Source of the DNA: a virus
Strand: one strand, 5' to 3'
IMG/VR virus record: IMGVR_UViG_3300034418_004925
Span: 1 to 36,211 of that record
DNA: 36,211 bases
Position numbers and translations under genes: made by a program. Positions 14,647 to 32,690 of this stretch are shown in pieces. Under the pieces are notes generated by a model. It had not been told where the DNA came from, did no database searches, and worked only from the letters and a program-made list of their open reading frames with translations. The first letter of the stretch is position 1. Every line of letters starts with the position of its first letter.

Positions 14647-14934
14647 CTACTTTTTACCCAATCCATTTTCGATTTCCTCCAATCGTTTTTCTATGCTGTC
14701 TATTTTACTGGTTACCTTGGGATAGCGTTTACGCCAGGCATCAGGATCATCCTGTAACCAGTCCCAACCAAACCTATCCACAAGATAATCCAATAGCTTG
14801 TCAAATTTAGACATAAGCCATAAAGCAGCGCGGGTATTTCTAAACCATGCCAAAAATGCTGCACCCACTAGAGATCCAGCAATGGCTGTATAGATCCATA
14901 ATGTGTCACCGAACATTCTTGATAGCACTTCCAT
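14647..14934 (-). CDS. Membrane protein with C-terminal coiled coil, 95 aa
   Basis: The ATG at 14934 (MEVLSRMFGDTLWIYTAIAG) is chosen because it overlaps the upstream stop as TAATG; the longer frame runs inside the neighbour. One hydrophobic segment (about 12-32), then an amphipathic region and a charged coiled coil at the C-terminus (KIDSIEKRLEEIENGLGKK). The topology fits a small holin or spanin-like accessory. Downstream of the lipase and coupled to a second small TM protein. Confidence 0.75.
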   Translation of the reverse strand: MEVLSRMFGDTLWIYTAIAGSLVGAAFLAWFRNTRAALWLMSKFDKLLDYLVDRFGWDWLQDDPDAWRKRYPKVTSKIDSIEKRLEEIENGLGKK

Positions 14935-15155
14935 TAGATTCCTCCGTATGTACTCATAATAGCTGGACCAAACAAACTCATGACCCACATAAGAACTGCG
15001 ATACTGAATATACCAATCAGTAGCCATTTCATTTTAAAGTCATCCACCTTCATTTGTAGTCCGAGCACTTCGTTCCCTAAAATTCGGATTGCAAGCTCAA
15101 ACTTACCTTCCGGATGATCCACCGCTTCGATCATTTTTTGTTTTTCTTCAGCCAT
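14934..15155 (-). CDS. Small single-span membrane protein, 73 aa
   Basis: ATG at 15155 (MAEEKQKMIEAVDHPEGKFE) has a good Shine-Dalgarno (GGAGAAAGAAAATG) and overlaps the end of the lipase gene by 8 bases. Residues 42-63 are hydrophobic (WLLIGIFSIAVLMWVMSLFG), preceded by an amphipathic helix. It belongs to the same lipase-associated membrane set. Holin-type function is possible. Confidence 0.75.
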   Translation of the reverse strand: MAEEKQKMIEAVDHPEGKFELAIRILGNEVLGLQMKVDDFKMKWLLIGIFSIAVLMWVMSLFGPAIMSTYGGI

Positions 15156-15876
15156 TTTCTTTCTCCAAATATTTGATATAATTCGACATGCCATGATCTC
15201 TCGCTCCATCGAAAGGTTGTCTTTTTTTCCATGCTGCCATACGACCACGCCAACCGTCTTTAAATCTTTGCCAACTTGTCATCTTCCTAATGTTTCCATA
15301 GAAGTTTATATAGCGCAACTCCCCATGATGTCTATATCCCATCCATTTAAACGGAACCTTAGGAACTATATCATTGTTATTTACATGTCTATAATGTGGG
15401 GCTTTAATTGATTTCACCCATTCAGCATTTCCTGCTCTTGGTGAGCCGTATGTGTATAGACCAGTAACTTTATCACCCAACCTGCTTGCTGCGATAGTAG
15501 CCATTGCACCACCCAGAGAATGACCACAGATATACAAATGGTAACACTTCTGGGCTTCCATGACCTCTAGAATGTTGTGCCAAATTTTATTAACTTCTTC
15601 TTGGAATCCATTGTGGACTTTACCATGGCCATTGTGTGCTGCATCAGGCCAGGCATTTAGATCTGCTTTAATATCAGAAAATTCGTCTGGCTCTGTGCCT
15701 CTAAAACATATAGCCATTTCCTTATCGTCCCAAATTACATGACACTGCGCACCTTTCACTTCGATGAACTTGTGACCTTTCCATCCCATTTTCTTATAAA
15801 GCTTTTTGGCTTCTTTCCCATCCAAATAAGCAATGCCGGCCAACTGCGACATTTCATAACATCTCTCAATAGACAT
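15148..15876 (-). CDS. Class-3 lipase-like alpha/beta hydrolase
   Basis: 242 residues. CGHSLGGAMATIAA (nucleophile Ser120 in GHSLG), NNNDIVPKVP (Asp169) and DHGMSNY (His228) form the catalytic triad in the order of the lipase class-3 family (PF01764). CFRGTEPDEFSDIKADL supplies the family's oxyanion and strand region. No signal peptide, so it would act on the cytoplasmic face or reach lipid by another route. Its neighbours are small membrane proteins and a coiled-coil membrane protein. I infer membrane-lipid attack during lysis or envelope remodelling. Gly/Ser chemistry looks intact. Confidence 0.88.
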   Translation of the reverse strand: MSIERCYEMSQLAGIAYLDGKEAKKLYKKMGWKGHKFIEVKGAQCHVIWDDKEMAICFRGTEPDEFSDIKADLNAWPDAAHNGHGKVHNGFQEEVNKIWHNILEVMEAQKCYHLYICGHSLGGAMATIAASRLGDKVTGLYTYGSPRAGNAEWVKSIKAPHYRHVNNNDIVPKVPFKWMGYRHHGELRYINFYGNIRKMTSWQRFKDGWRGRMAAWKKRQPFDGARDHGMSNYIKYLEKENG

Positions 15877-16580: not shown

Positions 16581-16901
16581 TTATCTTTCTCCTAATGGTA
16601 TTTCTATTCCTGCTACTATACCCTTTAACTTATAATCTTCTATCCCCGGCATAGCAAAAAAGTTACCAGCTTTAAATCTAGCCATTGGAACTATGTGGGC
16701 TGAAGTGTATCCCGTCATAAATCCCAATTCAATGTTATCATTTAGATCCCAACTTAAATAATTACCTATTTTCTTTTCACTATTTACAAGTAATCCGTAA
16801 TTATAACGACCTCGCTCACATGTGGCATATGGATGAATCATATTATAGCCGTCATCCATATTCAAATGGAGTGACAGCGCCAACCCTAAAAGACAGTTCA
16901 T
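16581..16901 (-). CDS. Small exported beta-strand protein, 106 aa
   Basis: 106 residues with a short hydrophobic N-terminus (MNCLLGLALSLHLN) and a beta-rich body with alternating aromatic and small residues (YNYGLLVNSEKKIGNYLSWD, FMTGYTSAHIVPMARFKAG, IVAGIEIPLGER). This resembles small outer-membrane-barrel-type phage proteins, but the family is unproved and the signal region is short. ATGA overlap with the large secreted gene upstream. Exported or envelope-related by inference. Confidence 0.6.
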   Translation of the reverse strand: MNCLLGLALSLHLNMDDGYNMIHPYATCERGRYNYGLLVNSEKKIGNYLSWDLNDNIELGFMTGYTSAHIVPMARFKAGNFFAMPGIEDYKLKGIVAGIEIPLGER

Positions 16902-18661
16902 CTATTGTCGTATTGCATCCTTACTAGTGCGTTATGTTTTTCGTCACTTGCCCCGTTAAAGAATCTTGAATTTGGGTTATCATGATTTTTTTGGTTTGGG
17001 TAAATCTCCTTTGGTTTATAAAAATCTGCGTCAGCCATTTGAAGTTGTTGGTATTGGCTGAATAATGGGTTATATCCTAAAAGTGCGGATCGTGCATCTT
17101 CATCATCACTGCCTTCAAATGCCTTTGCTACCAGCTCGGCTTCTTCCATAGTACTCATAGGTTCAGCAATTTCTTCTTTTGGTTCTGGTAGTTTAAGTTC
17201 GAATGTAGGAGATGTTACTTGACTTATAATATTATTTAAAATATCATTTGCGGTTTCTACATTTACATCATCCACAATTATTTCTAACTGCAAAACATTC
17301 TCTTCTAAATTTAAAGCTGCAAATTGTTGTTGTGAAACATTAGAAGCAATTGACTGTACGTTCTCTATTAATTGCTCCTCCATTTCAAAGGATAGTTCAG
17401 CAGACTCTTGGGCCTGCTCCATTACAAAACTAGTGGATTGTTGGTCTGATTGAATAGATGATGTTGTAGCACTGCTTATGGCATTATTGGCCGCGGCAGC
17501 AGCGTCAGCAACAGCGCCTCTAGCCACATCCAACGGATTAATCCGTACCCTTGGGCTCGTTCCAGTTTCCGCCACAGTGTCATTTAATATATCTGGTTCA
17601 AGATCGCCAGCAACTTCTATGGGCTCTTCCAACACTTCTTCAATGGCATCTTCTATTACCTCTACTACTGGTTCTGGTCCTGGCTGAGATTCTTCAATAA
17701 CTTTCTCAGTACGTGGAGTTTCATTAACTTCTTCAATTGTTCCTGTGTCATTTGTCATCTCCGCCATTGCTAGTTGTTCGGCCAACATGGCCTCTTGTTG
17801 TTCTTGTAGTGCCGTAGCATATCCAGGGCATCTAGCATCATTCAAAGGATCACTACAATCCAATGGTTCTTTATAAACAAAGATGGAATAGATACCAGCT
17901 TCTCTAAACTCTGGACCCCAGTAGCCAGCCCAGTAACCAGCATCTTTACCCTCAACTTCTAGCGTAAGTGTATCAACTTTATCGCCCATTAAAAAAGGAT
18001 CATACCACTGCATTCCATTTTTTTGTTCCCAGTCACTTATTGAATATGAGTAATCCCACTCTCTTTCATCAAGGACATTTCCATCATTATCTTTGACAAT
18101 GACTCTTACATATAATGGGTCTTGATTATTGACTTGAACTGCGCTTGTATCATTAGCATTGTAATTTTTAACTTTCCACTGCCATAAGTATCCAACAACT
18201 TGAACACCCGCAACTTTTAAAGCATCATTTATAATGTCTTGTGTTTGAGAAACTATTGTATTATTGTATCCGAAACGAATAGCTCCATCACCATTAGTAC
18301 CTATATTAGCACATGAACCACCAGACGTTCCACCCCAAGATCCATCTCCGCCATTAGAAGCTGAAGGATCTAAACATCCAGTTGTGGCTGTCCAAGAGTC
18401 TATAGAGTAAGTTGTATTTTCACTTTCAAACCATCCCGTTCCTAAAAACCCACCGTCTCCAGTCGTAGTTGCAGTAACATTATTATCAATCAGCTGTTCC
18501 ATATATGTGCGTTCATTATATTCCAACAGATCATCAGGATTCGATGGAGCAGCATACAGCGTTCCCATATCAATATCTTGTTGGGTTAGGTCCTGCGCGC
18601 TAGAGTATTGCGAGAAGAGCCAAGAGCATACCAAGACCGATGAAAGTGTTTGCTTTAGCAT
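16898..18661 (-). CDS. Large exported protein with signal peptide
   Basis: I prefer ATG 18661 (MLKQTLSSVLVCSWLFSQYS), which gives a normal signal peptide cut after SSAQ; an upstream ATG at 18712 adds a basic 17-residue extension, and neither has a strong Shine-Dalgarno. The mature protein (about 560 residues) has an N-terminal beta-rich region with Gly/Ser/Asn turns and Cys (about 70-270), a long Glu/Pro-rich linker (VEVIEDAIEEVLEEPIEV), an Ala-rich helical region, and a hydrophilic tail. It overlaps the Asn/Thr-repeat gene by 62 bases. No family recognised. Probably periplasmic or envelope-exposed. Confidence 0.75.
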   Translation of the reverse strand: MLKQTLSSVLVCSWLFSQYSSAQDLTQQDIDMGTLYAAPSNPDDLLEYNERTYMEQLIDNNVTATTTGDGGFLGTGWFESENTTYSIDSWTATTGCLDPSASNGGDGSWGGTSGGSCANIGTNGDGAIRFGYNNTIVSQTQDIINDALKVAGVQVVGYLWQWKVKNYNANDTSAVQVNNQDPLYVRVIVKDNDGNVLDEREWDYSYSISDWEQKNGMQWYDPFLMGDKVDTLTLEVEGKDAGYWAGYWGPEFREAGIYSIFVYKEPLDCSDPLNDARCPGYATALQEQQEAMLAEQLAMAEMTNDTGTIEEVNETPRTEKVIEESQPGPEPVVEVIEDAIEEVLEEPIEVAGDLEPDILNDTVAETGTSPRVRINPLDVARGAVADAAAAANNAISSATTSSIQSDQQSTSFVMEQAQESAELSFEMEEQLIENVQSIASNVSQQQFAALNLEENVLQLEIIVDDVNVETANDILNNIISQVTSPTFELKLPEPKEEIAEPMSTMEEAELVAKAFEGSDDEDARSALLGYNPLFSQYQQLQMADADFYKPKEIYPNQKNHDNPNSRFFNGASDEKHNALVRMQYDNR

Positions 18662-19589
18662 GGGGTGTAGTTTCTTCTGTTTGTGGAATAGGTTTTTCTT
18701 CTGGGAATTCATCCCATAGTGCCTGTGCTTGGTCTCCTATAGTACCATCAAATGGGCAAGGGGTGCCAGCCATTCTCATAGCGTTGAATACCGCTGCATC
18801 TTGACACATTAAAGCTACCGCAGCAACCTTCATACCCATATTATAAAGAGCTTTAGAGTTCTTTAGTCTCTCACAGTTTATATCTCTTATGTGCCCACCA
18901 CCGCTCATCCCAAGTATTTGGGTTTGCACAGAACTAGACCATGTCACTGTACAGTTGTCATTACCACCTGACATAATGGTAGGTGCTATTGCTGATGGCG
19001 GTGGGGATTCAATCTTTTGAGTAACGTCTGATGTAGATGTATTTTGATTTACATTGGCATTAGTATTGCTAGACGTACTACTCATGGTAGTATTACTAGT
19101 GTTATTGTTTGTATTAACATTAGTATTTGTATTGGTGTTTGTACTAGTATTCGTATTGGTATTGGTATTTGTACTAGTATTTGTGTTGGTGTTATCCGTA
19201 GTCACACTAGATGTATTATCAGAAGTGCTATTGACCGTGCTAGTGGTAGTGTTATCTATAGTCGAAGTATTCGTATTAGTATTTGTACTAGTATTAGTAT
19301 TTGTATTATTTGTCGTACTAGTATTCGTATTCGTGTTTGTCGAAGTGGTTGTACTATCTACAGTACTAGTATTCGTGTTTGTATTAGTATTTGTATTTGT
19401 ACTAGTGATCGTCGTATCATTAGTATTCGTATTATCAGTAGTTACAGTGCTAGTTGTGGTTGTAGTACTATCATTGTTTGTTTCTACATAGCTAGTACTA
19501 TCAAAATTACCATCTGCGTCATTAGCGACTTGGGCCTGAACAACAGATGATGCCATAACGAAGAGAACTGCGGACAGAAGTCTCTTCAT
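18600..19589 (-). CDS. Exported Asn/Thr-repeat protein with C-terminal membrane anchor
   Basis: 329 residues. Signal peptide MKRLLSAVLFVMASSVVQAQ (cut near AQA/QV), then about 150 residues of Asn-Thr/Ser-Thr repeats (TNTNTNTST and variants, about 35-185), a folded Cys-containing domain (about 200-290), and a hydrophobic C-terminus (ANTFIGLGMLLALLAIL). This layout suits a secreted protein tethered to the membrane with a long flexible spacer. It follows the late TATAAATA promoter at 19623, so it is probably a late gene. Function unknown; repeat count may vary between relatives. Confidence 0.85.
   Translation of the reverse strand: MKRLLSAVLFVMASSVVQAQVANDADGNFDSTSYVETNNDSTTTTTSTVTTDNTNTNDTTITSTNTNTNTNTNTSTVDSTTTSTNTNTNTSTTNNTNTNTSTNTNTNTSTIDNTTTSTVNSTSDNTSSVTTDNTNTNTSTNTNTNTNTSTNTNTNTNVNTNNNTSNTTMSSTSSNTNANVNQNTSTSDVTQKIESPPPSAIAPTIMSGGNDNCTVTWSSSVQTQILGMSGGGHIRDINCERLKNSKALYNMGMKVAAVALMCQDAAVFNAMRMAGTPCPFDGTIGDQAQALWDEFPEEKPIPQTEETTPHAKANTFIGLGMLLALLAIL
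19035..19490 (-). repeat. Asn/Thr-coding low-complexity repeat tract
   Basis: Short in-frame units coding NT, ST and DT alternate for about 450 bases inside the exported repeat protein. The codons vary (AAT/AAC, ACT/ACA/ACC), so the protein repeat is better kept than the DNA repeat. It also creates a long open frame of Val/Leu on the other strand that is not a gene. Confidence 0.85.
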
Positions 19590-20161: not shown

Positions 20162-20953
20162 TTAGAAGGAGAATGTAAGACCTACGCTGGGCTTAAATTC
20201 TTCTGCATCAAAATTATAATTGGCGCCAGCGCTTACTTCTGCTCCGCCAAGATTATAAACATATTCACCACCTATGTTTTGTAGTGTTTCATCAGTATCA
20301 CCATTCAAGTAAGCTGTTGCACCCATAATTGACGCAGTTGTTTCGAAGCCAAGTTTCTCTGCATCAATATCATATGAAAGTGCCCCACCAACTCCTAAAC
20401 CAGCTGCTTCGAACCCGTTAACACCTGCACCAAGTACAGTGTTTTCGGTATCAAAGTTGTAGTCCAGAGCTGCAGTAACATCCATGCCCATTACACCGAG
20501 TGTGTAAGAACCTTGCAAATTGCTAAGATCTGTCAGATCGGTACCCCAATCAGTAAATCCTACCGCTACTGATGCACCAGCTACTTCCACTTTCACTGAC
20601 TCTGCCATGGCAGGTTTAGCCAGTGTCTGGTTTCCTTCTGCATCGGGCATAAGCCCGTTGTCGTCACCAATAGAAAGACCGATACCAGCAACTGATGTGC
20701 CTACGGTCCAGTTATCTAGTACAACGGCATTGCCATCTGTTGCACTAAAGTCTAGGTCTATGTTAGCCAAACCTGCAGCATCGATGCCAAGGTCTAGACC
20801 CATAGATCCGGCCATGTCGCCGGCTGCAGTTTCTGCTAAAGTTATACCGACTTCGCCAGAAATAGTTGGCCCTGCACTGGCCGTTGTGTCTTCAGCAAAT
20901 GCTACGCCGGCGAACGATGTAGCGATTGCGGATGTGATAAGTAACTTTTTCAT
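20162..20953 (-). CDS. Porin-like outer-membrane protein
   Basis: 263 residues. Signal peptide MKKLLITSAIATSFAGVAFA, then an acidic body of alternating strands with small and hydrophobic residues (GPTISGEVGITLAETAAGDM, GGALSYDIDAEKLGFETTAS, GGEYVYNLGGAEVSAGANYN) ending GLTFSF. A terminal Phe is the usual BAM-recognition end of outer-membrane barrels. The style resembles alphaproteobacterial porins, and it looks like a complete small barrel of perhaps 12-16 strands. Co-transcribed with the tmRNA and a small membrane protein, ending at the terminator at 20086. May replace or mask a host porin; inference. Confidence 0.75.
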   Translation of the reverse strand: MKKLLITSAIATSFAGVAFAEDTTASAGPTISGEVGITLAETAAGDMAGSMGLDLGIDAAGLANIDLDFSATDGNAVVLDNWTVGTSVAGIGLSIGDDNGLMPDAEGNQTLAKPAMAESVKVEVAGASVAVGFTDWGTDLTDLSNLQGSYTLGVMGMDVTAALDYNFDTENTVLGAGVNGFEAAGLGVGGALSYDIDAEKLGFETTASIMGATAYLNGDTDETLQNIGGEYVYNLGGAEVSAGANYNFDAEEFKPSVGLTFSF

Positions 20954-20968
20954 TATTATTTCCTATTA

Positions 20969-21199
20969 TTACTTTTTGTTCCAAATCTCATATAGAACCC
21001 AAACTGCGATCAAACCAACTAGTCCTTGAGCGCCTAACATCGCGATGATACCGCTAACATTAGTAATTACGCTAGCTGTTGGGAGAAACGGAATTGCACC
21101 AAGTCCCAAGACTTCTAGTACAATCATAAGAGCTGCGATACTAATACCGACTTCTGCTAGTGCCCCTGCCCATGTTTTTACTTTGTTTAGAATTTCCAT
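20969..21199 (-). CDS. Holin-like two-span membrane protein
   Basis: ATG at 21199 (MEILNKVKTWAGALAEVGIS) follows a Shine-Dalgarno AAAGGAATAACAATT at usual spacing; the upstream extension runs towards the tmRNA and is rejected. The 76-residue protein has two hydrophobic segments (about 12-32 and 46-70) joined by AIPFLPTASVITNVSG and a short basic end (EIWNKK). This is a typical holin or small phage membrane protein; related sequences occur in marine phages. It lies between the tmRNA and the porin. Confidence 0.75.
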   Translation of the reverse strand: MEILNKVKTWAGALAEVGISIAALMIVLEVLGLGAIPFLPTASVITNVSGIIAMLGAQGLVGLIAVWVLYEIWNKK

Positions 21200-21237
21200 A
21201 ATTGTTATTCCTTTATTTGTTATTCGCCACACTTCTG

Positions 21238-21490
21238 TTGCTAGGCAGTGGCCGCCCCCTGTGATTATGCTGCTAGAGCAAATCCAGATGGTGCAAAATT
21301 ATCGTTTGCATTTGTGTTTTGTAAACTGGACTACATGTCGATCCTATTTCAGCCCCATCAAAAACACACCTTCTTGGCCCGACTAAGGGTTGTGTGCTGC
21401 ACCACACCTATTGTGCAGATAGGCGAAGTGTGTTTTTGGTGGAGCTGCTGGGTACCGCCCCCAGGTCCATATAACCTTTATAACGTCTAC
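21238..21490 (-). ncRNA. ssrA: Circularly permuted two-piece tmRNA
   Basis: Read on the minus strand. Acceptor piece (about 21490-21437): helix-2 strand TGGAC (21469-21465), T-arm CTGGG-GGCGGTA-CCCAG (21464-21448), acceptor 3' half CAGCTCC (21447-21441), discriminator A, CCA (21439-21437). An intervening hairpin (21436-21357) joins it to the coding piece, which starts GGGGCTG (21356-21350), pairs 7/7 with the acceptor half, and has the G3-U70 pair that alanyl-tRNA synthetase reads. It then has AGGATCGACA (D-analogue), GTCCA (21331-21327, pairs with TGGAC) and a tag frame (21309-21265) coding ANDNFAPSGFALAA then TAA. The tag end and stop lie in a hairpin (21281-21270 with 21248-21238). This order (acceptor before coding) is the alphaproteobacterial two-piece form. 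Confidence 0.93.
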
Positions 21491-21496
21491 TTCTTT

Positions 21497-21525
21497 ATTT
21501 AATCACATATCCGAGAAATTGTAAA
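21497..21525 (-). promoter_or_regulatory. Promoter of the tmRNA transcript
   Basis: Minus strand: TTTACA (21525-21520), 17-bp spacer, TTAAAT (21502-21497). The start would fall near 21490, at the acceptor-piece end of the tmRNA. It lacks the G-rich upstream element seen at the early promoters. Confidence 0.65.
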
Positions 21526-21600
21526 TACCATAAAACTATATTTTTACTTCGTGACATAATTATCACTTTCCAATTCTCGTCGTATGCTATGGTGATATTC

Positions 21601-22005
21601 TTATACTTCTTTATCGTGTACGTAGAGCTGGATGAGGGCATAGTGTAATACCTTCATTAAGTCTTTTCTAGCGTCTGCAGAAGAACCCTTCTTACCGTAC
21701 CGCTGTGCGTACTTGAGGACATTGCCAATACAGAAACCCGTGCCATGTCCACCATCAACAATAAATTCAGTAGCTTGGAATTTTTCTTTTGCATAGTGCT
21801 GACCATATGTGCTATCGACGTACTCCTTAAATTCTTTGATTAGTTCTGCTTCATTGAATTTATAATCAATATTTGGAACGAGAGTAAACGTATATTCGGT
21901 ATCTTCATAACCCTCTTTGGGCCAATCCTTATAATCCTCAAAATCTGATGAGTCAATCATCAAGGTTGATGTATCGATTGTGACGACGTTTTTTTCTTTT
22001 GCCAT
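21601..22005 (-). CDS. DUF3310-like phage protein
   Basis: ATG at 22005 (MAKEKNVVTIDTSTLMIDSS) follows GAGGAGACTTGGAT; the TTG two codons upstream is rejected. The 134-residue protein has GTGFCIGNVLKYAQRYGKKG near its end, followed by DARKDLMKVLHYALIQLYVH. That is the core of the DUF3310 (SaV-like, phage nucleotide-kinase-associated) family, whose biochemical role is unknown. The N-terminal half is unrelated and acidic. It overlaps the DUF1289 gene by 53 bases. Confidence 0.7.
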   Translation of the reverse strand: MAKEKNVVTIDTSTLMIDSSDFEDYKDWPKEGYEDTEYTFTLVPNIDYKFNEAELIKEFKEYVDSTYGQHYAKEKFQATEFIVDGGHGTGFCIGNVLKYAQRYGKKGSSADARKDLMKVLHYALIQLYVHDKEV

Positions 22006-22159
22006 ATCCAAGTCTCCTCATTATTTCCATACGTTTTTCATGGTCGTATGAAATCCATTCTGTTATCTCATCTATCGTTCTGCCACACCCAATGCATGTC
22101 CTATTCGGACCAATCTTACAGACTTGAATGCATGGTGTAACATATAAATCCTTATTCAT
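21953..22159 (-). CDS. DUF1289 small Cys protein
   Basis: 68 residues. TPCIQVCKIGPNRTCIGCGR has four Cys (10, 14, 22, 25) in the C-x3-C...C-x2-C pattern of DUF1289, followed by TIDEITEWISYDHEKRMEIM and a basic tail. The family is common in proteobacteria and may bind a metal; its function is unknown. It overlaps the SleB gene by 8 bases and the next gene by 53, so it probably shares a coupled operon. Confidence 0.85.
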   Translation of the reverse strand: MNKDLYVTPCIQVCKIGPNRTCIGCGRTIDEITEWISYDHEKRMEIMRRLGYGKRKKRRHNRYINLDD

Positions 22160-32147: not shown

Positions 32148-32490
32148 CGCCCATAAACCCTACTGTTTCTCTTACAATATCATTATGGTTAAACTCAGCC
32201 CAATAGAGCTCATATGCAACACCAGACTCTAGACATTCAAACTGATGATAAAGACCTGGTTTGATTTTTGTATAATCTCCTCCATACAAAATAGTTTCAT
32301 CCACCAGATCATAGTCTTTCTGCCAGACACGAACCAACATTACACCTTTTTCGACATAGAACCCATTCCATTTGAACTCATGAAGATGTTTAGAGCAAAC
32401 ACCTCCTTTATTCATCTGAATACGATGAAACTCTAAAGCACCATTAGCTTCAATAAGCTCTGTAGTACCCCATACTTTCCCTGCTTTCAT
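32137..32490 (-). CDS. Cupin-fold protein (sugar isomerase-like)
   Basis: 117 residues. KHLHEFKWNGFYVEKGVM (34-51) carries the HxH and downstream Glu of cupin motif 1, and IKPGLYHQFECLE (76-88) the motif 2 His82. The metal-binding set looks complete. The style matches the small cupins attached to mannose-6-phosphate isomerase/GDP-mannose enzymes, consistent with a PMM-like neighbour. It may isomerise or epimerise a sugar phosphate. Overlaps the next genes by 4 and 11 bases. Confidence 0.8.
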   Translation of the reverse strand: MKAGKVWGTTELIEANGALEFHRIQMNKGGVCSKHLHEFKWNGFYVEKGVMLVRVWQKDYDLVDETILYGGDYTKIKPGLYHQFECLESGVAYELYWAEFNHNDIVRETVGFMGDEI

Positions 32491-32690
32491 CGTCTTTTTC
32501 CTTTTAAGTATTTTTGATATTCTTCATAATTTTCTTCACTTTTTTTAAACTGTTCCCATCCAGCTGTGGTCTCAGCATCCAGTTGCATTTTTTGAACACT
32601 GATACCTTTAGTTCGTTTCATAGGTTTACCCTTTTTAATTTCCCCACCTTTTTTAAGAAATTCATCAACTAAATGTTTATATTCACTCAT
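32487..32690 (-). CDS. Small Lys/Glu-rich hypothetical protein
   Basis: 67 residues, highly charged: EFLKKGGEIKKGKPMKRTKG, then a helical end (EEYQKYLKGKRR). No family recognised. TAATG overlap with the small coiled-coil gene upstream and ATGA-type overlap with the cupin gene downstream. Confidence 0.75.
   Translation of the reverse strand: MSEYKHLVDEFLKKGGEIKKGKPMKRTKGISVQKMQLDAETTAGWEQFKKSEENYEEYQKYLKGKRR

Follow-up and report, generated by a model that had tools for sequence, protein, structure and literature searches.

A permuted tmRNA gene without pseudoknot PK1 predicted in a T4-like phage, and its spacer as a putative cargo site in related viruses

The locus described here bears on whether a permuted tmRNA can do without pseudoknot PK1, and on what may be housed in the spacer between its two halves. 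The window, i.e. the whole stretch of 36,211 nt that was analysed, is a 36 kb virus contig which, judged by its genes, is a fragment of a T4-like phage. Its DNA polymerase aligns over the full length with many cyanophage polymerases (best with that of C48C1, Kyanoviridae, 49.8%), and a DnaB-type helicase, ThyX and a cell-wall hydrolase are encoded as well. C48C1, the nearest relative by polymerase, gave no permuted tmRNA match.

Phage tmRNAs have been surveyed before. The Melnitz report (PMC9004378) describes a two-piece tmRNA in this T4-like phage, counts 133 distinct phage tmRNA structures, 53 of them two-piece by ARAGORN, finds a permuted tmRNA in 17 of 47 contigs of the Melnitz cluster, and suggests the upkeep of hijacked machinery or the degradation of host proteins as roles. 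A second source (PMC11915505) lists 79 distinct phage tmRNA sequences and mentions two permuted genes whose intervening sequence holds a tRNA-Ala gene in one case and a repeat in the other. Phage DSS3_MAL1 has an annotated permuted tmRNA, and an unannotated one was found in HTVC008M at 145161-145370 (L305:2484-2693; tag ANFNEYALAA, 90.6 bits). An earlier note on this DNA had called a permuted tmRNA in a T4-like phage unusual; since Melnitz and HTVC008M each have one, such a gene must be regarded as already known. What goes beyond the published work is a short form without PK1 and the spacer as a cargo site, neither of which the earlier note contained.

Layout and fold of the permuted gene

Positions 21226-21490 of the window, read on the minus strand (as are all other features of this locus given below), are by covariance and order a circularly permuted tmRNA gene. 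The stretch 21494-21265 matches the Rfam family tmRNA_permuted (RF04321) at 83.3 bits (gathering 47) and 21528-21222 matches alpha_tmRNA (RF01849) at 82.6 bits (gathering 50); otherwise, a search of 20900-21700 against Rfam to E 5 returned just four weaker, overlapping matches of the same clan. The order of a 3' tRNA-like half, CCA, spacer, 5' half and tag can be read directly from the sequence. The earlier note's identification of a phage-borne, minus-strand gene of the alphaproteobacterial two-piece type is thus upheld, including by the alpha-tmRNA covariance search it had proposed; ARAGORN, proposed alongside, reported nothing here.

The comparisons below draw on 217 viral contigs with a pattern match, in which the gap from D-analogue to resume codon was 30-60 nt (at least 120 contigs) or 6-34 nt (97 contigs). 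These gave 214 loci, with L003, L016, L050 and L063 unparsed, the mis-parsed L074 removed, and the window and L303 added. L074 is still contained in the counts of spacer lengths, gaps, spacer proteins, spacer ends and tags, and is in none of the 46 cargo loci described below. Relatives were parsed only if a CCA-type end was present, which makes any count of CCA ends circular.

The acceptor 3' half CAGCTCC with ACCA (21437-21447) is the predicted end of the first mature piece and the acceptor 5' half GGGGCTG (21350-21356), recognised by Rfam and by eye, the predicted start of the second. The two halves pair at 7 of 7 positions, including the G3-U70 wobble of alanine identity, and the extended acceptor helix reaches 19 of 20 pairs (7, then 3 of 4 between ACCA and TGAT, then 9); direct reading gave the same figures as the earlier note. 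G3-U70 is present in all 58 distinct short forms and in 214 of 214 loci, and acceptor pairs 5 and 6 are altered on both sides among the 58 distinct relatives. The T arm CTGGG-GGCGGTA-CCCAG (21448-21464), also placed by Rfam, pairs in 58 of 58, with four of the five stem pairs covarying. The D-analogue AAATAGGATCGA (21338-21349) agrees with the alpha_tmRNA consensus, and the tag frame ANDNFAPSGFALAA with its stop (21265-21309), seen in the sequence and by Rfam, runs from an alanine resume codon GCA to TAA.

The earlier note had joined the two pieces by a helix 2 of TGGAC with GTCCA. This pairing was rejected: GUCCA is found in the 3' piece of only 3 among 58 distinct relatives, and another pairing shows covariation. 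RNAalifold, run on the 58 distinct of 99 short-form rows, predicts GTAGAC/GTTTAC together with an inner ATG/CAT. In the window, the outer 5' strand GTAGAC (21485-21490) forms six pairs with GTTTAC, one of them G-U, and the inner 5' strand GGTTATATG (21468-21476) forms nine pairs, three of them G-U, with CATGTAGTC, the latter helix being read from the sequence; both 3' strands lie at 21321-21337. Compensatory changes are seen across the 58 distinct sequences: in relatives the outer helix reads GAAGAT/GTCTTC or GTAGAT/GTCTAC, and the inner one CAG/CTG or CTG/CAG. The innermost three pairs are present in 57-58 of the 58, with covariation at two of them, and at least two outer pairs are altered on both sides. 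The outer strands were located by a motif search that forces pairs 3, 5 and 6, which leaves pairs 1, 2 and 4 as the informative ones; RNAalifold predicted this helix independently of the motif search. An automatic search for helix 2 gave clearly wrong pairings for some rows, e.g. L159, L194 and L076.

Downstream of the tag, a best-match search placed a 3' pseudoknot of the PK2 type at 21226-21259, with a GCCAC/GTGGC stem, a GGGC/GCCT knot and the GCAACAG-type loop of alpha_tmRNA. The search took in the 56 distinct sequences with ACAG(A/G)A; in 55 of them the stem round the loop is perfectly paired, and relatives form the knot with GGGT/ACCT, GAGC/GCTT and other pairs. Folding of the whole gene beats that of shuffled sequences by 2.1 standard deviations; its minimum-energy fold contains the acceptor, the spacer stem and outer helix 2, with inner helix 2 and the T stem replaced by other pairings.

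The gene also has a settled place in the phage genome. Its upstream neighbour encodes a DUF3310 protein (21601-22011, by Pfam) that stands in the same place before the tmRNA in many relatives, where the tmRNA follows the order DnaB - ThyX - SleB - DUF3310; in several loci, relatives of the downstream neighbour, a 76-aa protein (20969-21199), are placed +283 to +383 relative to the spacer. Eleven close relatives were collected through an identical 30-nt stretch of the gene, so that 30 of its 267 nt are fixed thereby; among them the tmRNA gene has no variable site in 267 nt, against 1454 of 13518 aligned positions varying across 15-29 kb. This argues that the window's gene is not a chance match. 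The near flanks are also less variable than average, with 5 variable sites among 108 positions upstream and 7 among the 231 of the next gene (the DUF3310 gene has 48 in 411), and 3 of 339 overlapping segments of the gene's length, possibly including the gene itself, are equally unvaried. Further along the same strand, 18600-19589 encodes a 329-aa protein with a long, repetitive Thr/Asn-rich stretch and a weak match to phrog_20531; its neighbours 16898-18712 and 20162-20953 had no PHROGs or Pfam match at E 0.01.

The short form and pseudoknot PK1

By its layout, the window's tmRNA is without pseudoknot PK1, because just an A-rich single strand of 11 nt (21310-21320) lies between helix 2 and the resume codon. 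The gap from the D-analogue to the resume codon is 27 nt, compared with about 64 by our own count in the alpha_tmRNA consensus, and the covariance-model alignment deletes the region where PK1, a typical feature that the score does not require, would lie. The strand after helix 2 is 10-13 nt long and mostly A-rich in all 58 distinct short forms, and every gap in the 97 viral contigs found with the 6-34 nt pattern is 26 to 29 nt.

Longer forms differ at this position. A hairpin just before the resume codon is found in 23 of 23 distinct forms with gaps of 55-67 nt, and these hairpins differ compensatorily (TGATC/GATCA, TGGTC/GACCA, TGGCC/GGCCG). The same test on gaps of up to 29 nt gave 13 of 42, the hairpins being weak, dissimilar and mostly built from helix 2 bases; the counts were 1 of 7 for gaps of 37-38 nt and 10 of 40 for gaps of 42-47 nt. 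The viral forms with gaps of 37-38 nt also seem to lack PK1. Among the genomes of 84,980 bacterial and archaeal species, the 6-34 nt pattern occurs in four stretches, of which three are chance matches and the fourth is L303 (NZKY01000164.1), a PK1-less tmRNA in an Opitutia bin whose own tmRNA is a one-piece form scoring 159 bits. Judged from its genes, the L303 contig looks viral. Loss of PK1 is not claimed to be exclusive to phages, as the 37-38 nt forms seem PK1-less and the scan of bacteria covered gaps of 6-34 nt.

One locus, L110, has the window's tag and spacer element, yet a hairpin at the PK1 position is present. Its tmRNA follows a DUF3310 gene 85% like that of the window, with a relative of window 18600-19589 downstream. 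A DUF3310 tree of 64 rows and 92 columns, with many open forks and a single row with PK1, was too weak to give the loss of PK1 a direction.

Like Melnitz EXVC044M, an OM43 myophage, the window is T4-like and has a permuted alpha-type tmRNA with its own tag and thyX nearby; unlike the window, Melnitz has a longer leader before the tag, a tmRNA that ARAGORN finds and a glutamine riboswitch after it, whereas the window combines a gap of 27 nt with the absence of both PK1 and a riboswitch. The pelagiphage HTVC008M is also T4-like with a permuted tmRNA, but has a different tag (given above), a longer leader and a short spacer. With the alphaproteobacterial two-piece tmRNA (RF01849) the window shares gene order, acceptor, T arm, D-analogue, tag type and 3' pseudoknot; it differs in the absent PK1, the shorter gap and a shorter helix 2.

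This has consequences for detection. ARAGORN missed all five PK1-less loci tried (the window, L139, L146, L148 and L180) and found all five permuted forms with a longer leader, which suggests that surveys based on ARAGORN undercount phage tmRNAs. A natural permuted lineage without PK1 also bears on whether tagging needs this pseudoknot. E. coli tmRNA lacking PK1 reportedly tags proteins, going by the title of a 2009 paper. According to PMC3968760, tagging in E. coli requires PK1, although a small hairpin can substitute for it. No report of PK1-less phage tmRNAs was found in the open-access literature (preprints excluded, few subscription journals).

Expression, proposed action and competing explanations

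The gene is preceded by a sigma70-like promoter motif, TTTACA-17-TTAAAT (9 of 12 positions; 21497-21525), and by a degenerate box of the T4 late type, ATTAAATA (21496-21503), which matches TATAAATA at 6 of 8 positions and ends 5 nt before helix 2. TATAAATA is the T4 late promoter. Of 62 distinct upstream regions of the family, 42 match it at 7 or more of 8 positions in a place 4-6 nt ahead of helix 2, compared with 1.5% of shuffles; 23 have a sigma70-type pair matching at least 10 of 12 positions, compared with 1.8%. A stricter promoter scan of the single window left TTTACA-17-TTAAAT uncalled and called one other site, against 1.2 expected. The gene's own promoter, as claimed in the earlier note, is therefore borne out for the family, in which the motifs stand at a fixed distance, and not for the window alone, where 9 of 12 is not significant. 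A simple scan for terminators found none, and Rfam to E 5 found no glutamine riboswitch of the Melnitz kind in 20900-21700.

The gene probably encodes a working phage tmRNA of a compact, permuted class without PK1, which would rescue ribosomes in dependence on the host's SmpB. Transcription probably starts just before helix 2, and the precursor would fold into a tRNA-like domain of acceptor and T arm with the spacer as a long hairpin. By analogy with bacterial permuted tmRNAs, cuts after CCA and before GGGG would leave two pieces held together by the acceptor stem and helix 2. The host's alanyl-tRNA synthetase would charge the RNA by way of G3-U70, and with SmpB it would enter ribosomes stalled on mRNAs broken during infection. 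Translation would resume at GCA and add AANDNFAPSGFALAA, whose LAA end should direct the product to ClpXP; binding of LAA by ClpX is described in PMC3968760. The spacer would stay outside the product and so be free for other sequence, i.e. protein genes in related phages and a conserved RNA element here. No SmpB was found in 11 of 11 records (four titled complete genomes, the rest contigs; one of the complete genomes, C48C1, is without tmRNA), by a search that succeeded in 10 of 14 control genomes, so SmpB should be that of the host.

In 184 of 215 loci the tag ends in ALAA or RLAA. The exact tag of the window recurs in L110 and is shared by 33 of the 99 short-form loci. Followed by TAA, it occurs in no stretch of the 84,980 species' genomes, so that tagged products can probably be told apart from those of the host. 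Other tags end in AAAA, AAVA or AQAA, and a basic tag of 31 residues, ANDNVAQPKFMKKRNTFARKVGFTKGMALAA, is found in L146, L181, L183 and L187, with a near copy in L207 (pattern ANDNVAQPKFMKKRNTFARKVGFTKG(M/T)ALAA). The divergent ends and the basic 31-residue tags suggest that degradation is not tuned alike everywhere.

Several explanations compete with that of a working phage tmRNA. The gene could be an ordinary alphaproteobacterial tmRNA newly captured from a host, with nothing specific to phages about it, as the alpha_tmRNA score above gathering and the ANDN..ALAA tag type common in the loci might indicate. Such a capture is quite unlikely in view of the gap of 27 instead of about 64 nt, the 97 viral contigs with the 6-34 nt pattern against four stretches in the species' genomes (three by chance, one viral-looking), the lack of the exact tag with TAA in those genomes, and the fixed place in the phage gene order. 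The RNA could instead be a decoy or inhibitor that occupies SmpB or ribosomes and thereby blocks the host's trans-translation. Loss of PK1 could hamper the resumption of translation, and PMC11915505 offers a precedent in the CDS-less tmRNA-like RNA of phage DS6A. That RNA, by the same source, has no tag frame, whereas the window has a full one and is thus not of the DS6A type; because resume codon, stop, tag C-terminus and 3' pseudoknot are kept along with the frame, a decoy is unlikely. Decay to a functionless remnant would fit the loss of PK1 and the silence of ARAGORN, and is extremely improbable given the absence of variable sites in 267 nt, the compensatory changes, and the persistence of pairing and tag frame in relatives.

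The spacer and its cargo

The intervening spacer of the window (21357-21436) is predicted to be excised, and its ends prolong the acceptor helix. In the locus set spacers are 5 to 514 nt long (an entry of 1417 nt is a mis-parse), and their ends pair over 10.5 positions on average compared with 4.0 after shuffling (150 distinct spacers of at least 20 nt, one mis-parsed). In related viruses this spacer is, as far as sequence comparison goes, a cargo site, coding in 46 of the 214 loci for a protein from one of 13 families, which were grouped by eye. The tmRNA halves that flank the cargo pass an Rfam cut-off in all 16 cargo loci tested, as do those of L139, L140, L187 and L303. The permuted genes with a tRNA-Ala or a repeat, as given in PMC11915505, likewise hold cargo in the intervening sequence; those are single cases, in contrast to the phage protein genes, homing endonuclease and conserved RNA element seen here.

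Nine of the 13 families (F1, F2, F3, F4, F6, F9, F10, F11 and F12) have relatives outside spacers in phage contigs, and F5, F7, F8 and F13 were seen in spacers only, among classified loci. Two such relatives are free-standing minus-strand genes of the window itself: an F1 gene (32487-32690) has its counterpart inside the spacers of L201 and L206 (71% over 66 aa), and an F10 gene (14934-15248) inside that of L053 (34% over 64 aa, E 1e-5), F10 being present outside spacers in many other loci as well. F3 occurs as a free-standing gene immediately upstream of the tmRNA in Melnitz (67%) and downstream of it in L179 (65%), and identity to relatives outside spacers reaches 65% for F12 and is 30-33% for F2. 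F11 is an HNH endonuclease (PHROG 655, E 7e-15). For the other spacer proteins, PHROGs gave two weak matches of unknown function for one and none for eight, and an F8 spacer peptide had no match to E 0.01 among annotated phages.

These frames might also have arisen by chance or through faulty assembly. Several of them span no more than 27-40 aa, 4 of the 13 families have not been shown outside spacers among classified loci, and F9 lacks a clear third-position bias in two of three comparisons (changes at codon positions 15, 7, 11 and 16, 11, 17); the bias is also weaker in F5 (17, 11, 22). Such an origin is very unlikely because nine families do have outside relatives and because changes fall mostly at third positions in F2 (9, 2, 23; 20 synonymous and 9 other codon changes), F3 (5, 2, 8), F6 (10, 7, 18) and F8 (L208/L185; 4, 4, 16), in a comparison from which L178 is missing. 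A strand control points the same way: a sense frame with a relative outside spacers was found in 20 of 75 distinct spacers of 90-1000 nt, and in each of the 13 spacers that also gave an antisense match, this was weaker than the match in sense. The 75 were tested out of 153 distinct spacers, with matches of at least 98% identity and loci beyond the tmRNA set left out. Moreover, the same forms recur across contigs of different metagenomes, and the isolate Melnitz has a spacer frame too.

A role for the spacer as cargo site, with one gene lying inside an RNA gene, raises the question of how cargo translation and RNA maturation affect one another, be it by exclusion or by mutual help. At some loci of F5, F7 and F8 (L190, L139, L144, L219 and L028) the cargo frame ends at the tmRNA's own UAG of GAAATAG. 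In L144 the AGGAG before the cargo start codon sits in the spacer stem, so that folding and translation may be mutually exclusive. No report of protein genes in tmRNA spacers was found in the open-access literature, a search that left out preprints and took in few subscription journals.

No frame with a ribosome-binding site reaches 15 residues in the spacer of the window itself, which contains an RNA element instead (21373-21424). This element consists of two hairpins with complementary loops and a third hairpin, in the pattern CCTAT-CTGCAYA-ATAGG, TGTG-GTGCAG-CACA and CYC-N6-GRG. All 19 viral stretches with this pattern lie within permuted tmRNA spacers, of forms with and without the hairpin at the PK1 position; none lies outside a tmRNA, and a looser pattern gave the same 19. 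As a known RNA it had no Rfam match to E 5. Over six distinct sequences the named structure of the spacer is 99.4% paired, and five pairs are altered on both sides (2 of 500 shuffles were as high); four of these belong to the terminal helix and the fifth to the third hairpin. The six kissing pairs between the loops are invariant save for one C-G to U-G change and are missing from the spacer's minimum-energy fold, for which reason the kissing loops are put forward as a proposal only.

Slightly more likely than not is a broader model in which the tmRNA spacer of marine phages is a general docking site, entered and left by protein genes, an HNH homing endonuclease and dedicated RNA elements. A single transcript would then give rise to a rescue RNA together with either a small mRNA or a non-coding RNA. 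In this model the core lacking PK1 would be a minimal tmRNA shaped by phages that tags without PK1, and the window's element would represent a new class of RNA which may aid precursor processing or act in trans. The HNH homing endonuclease could move spacer cargo.

Some individual spacers merit mention. In L057 and L101 the HNH homing-endonuclease gene lies within a 514-nt spacer, and relatives are found about 500 nt from the tmRNA in L035, L081 and L089. The Melnitz frame (L304:2808-2936), where no CDS is annotated, follows a GGAG site and would extend into the second half of the tmRNA. L138, L177, L180 and L189 make up another conserved spacer family, in which GGTACACAAYGG and AGAATCRGCTAGTGT are shared.
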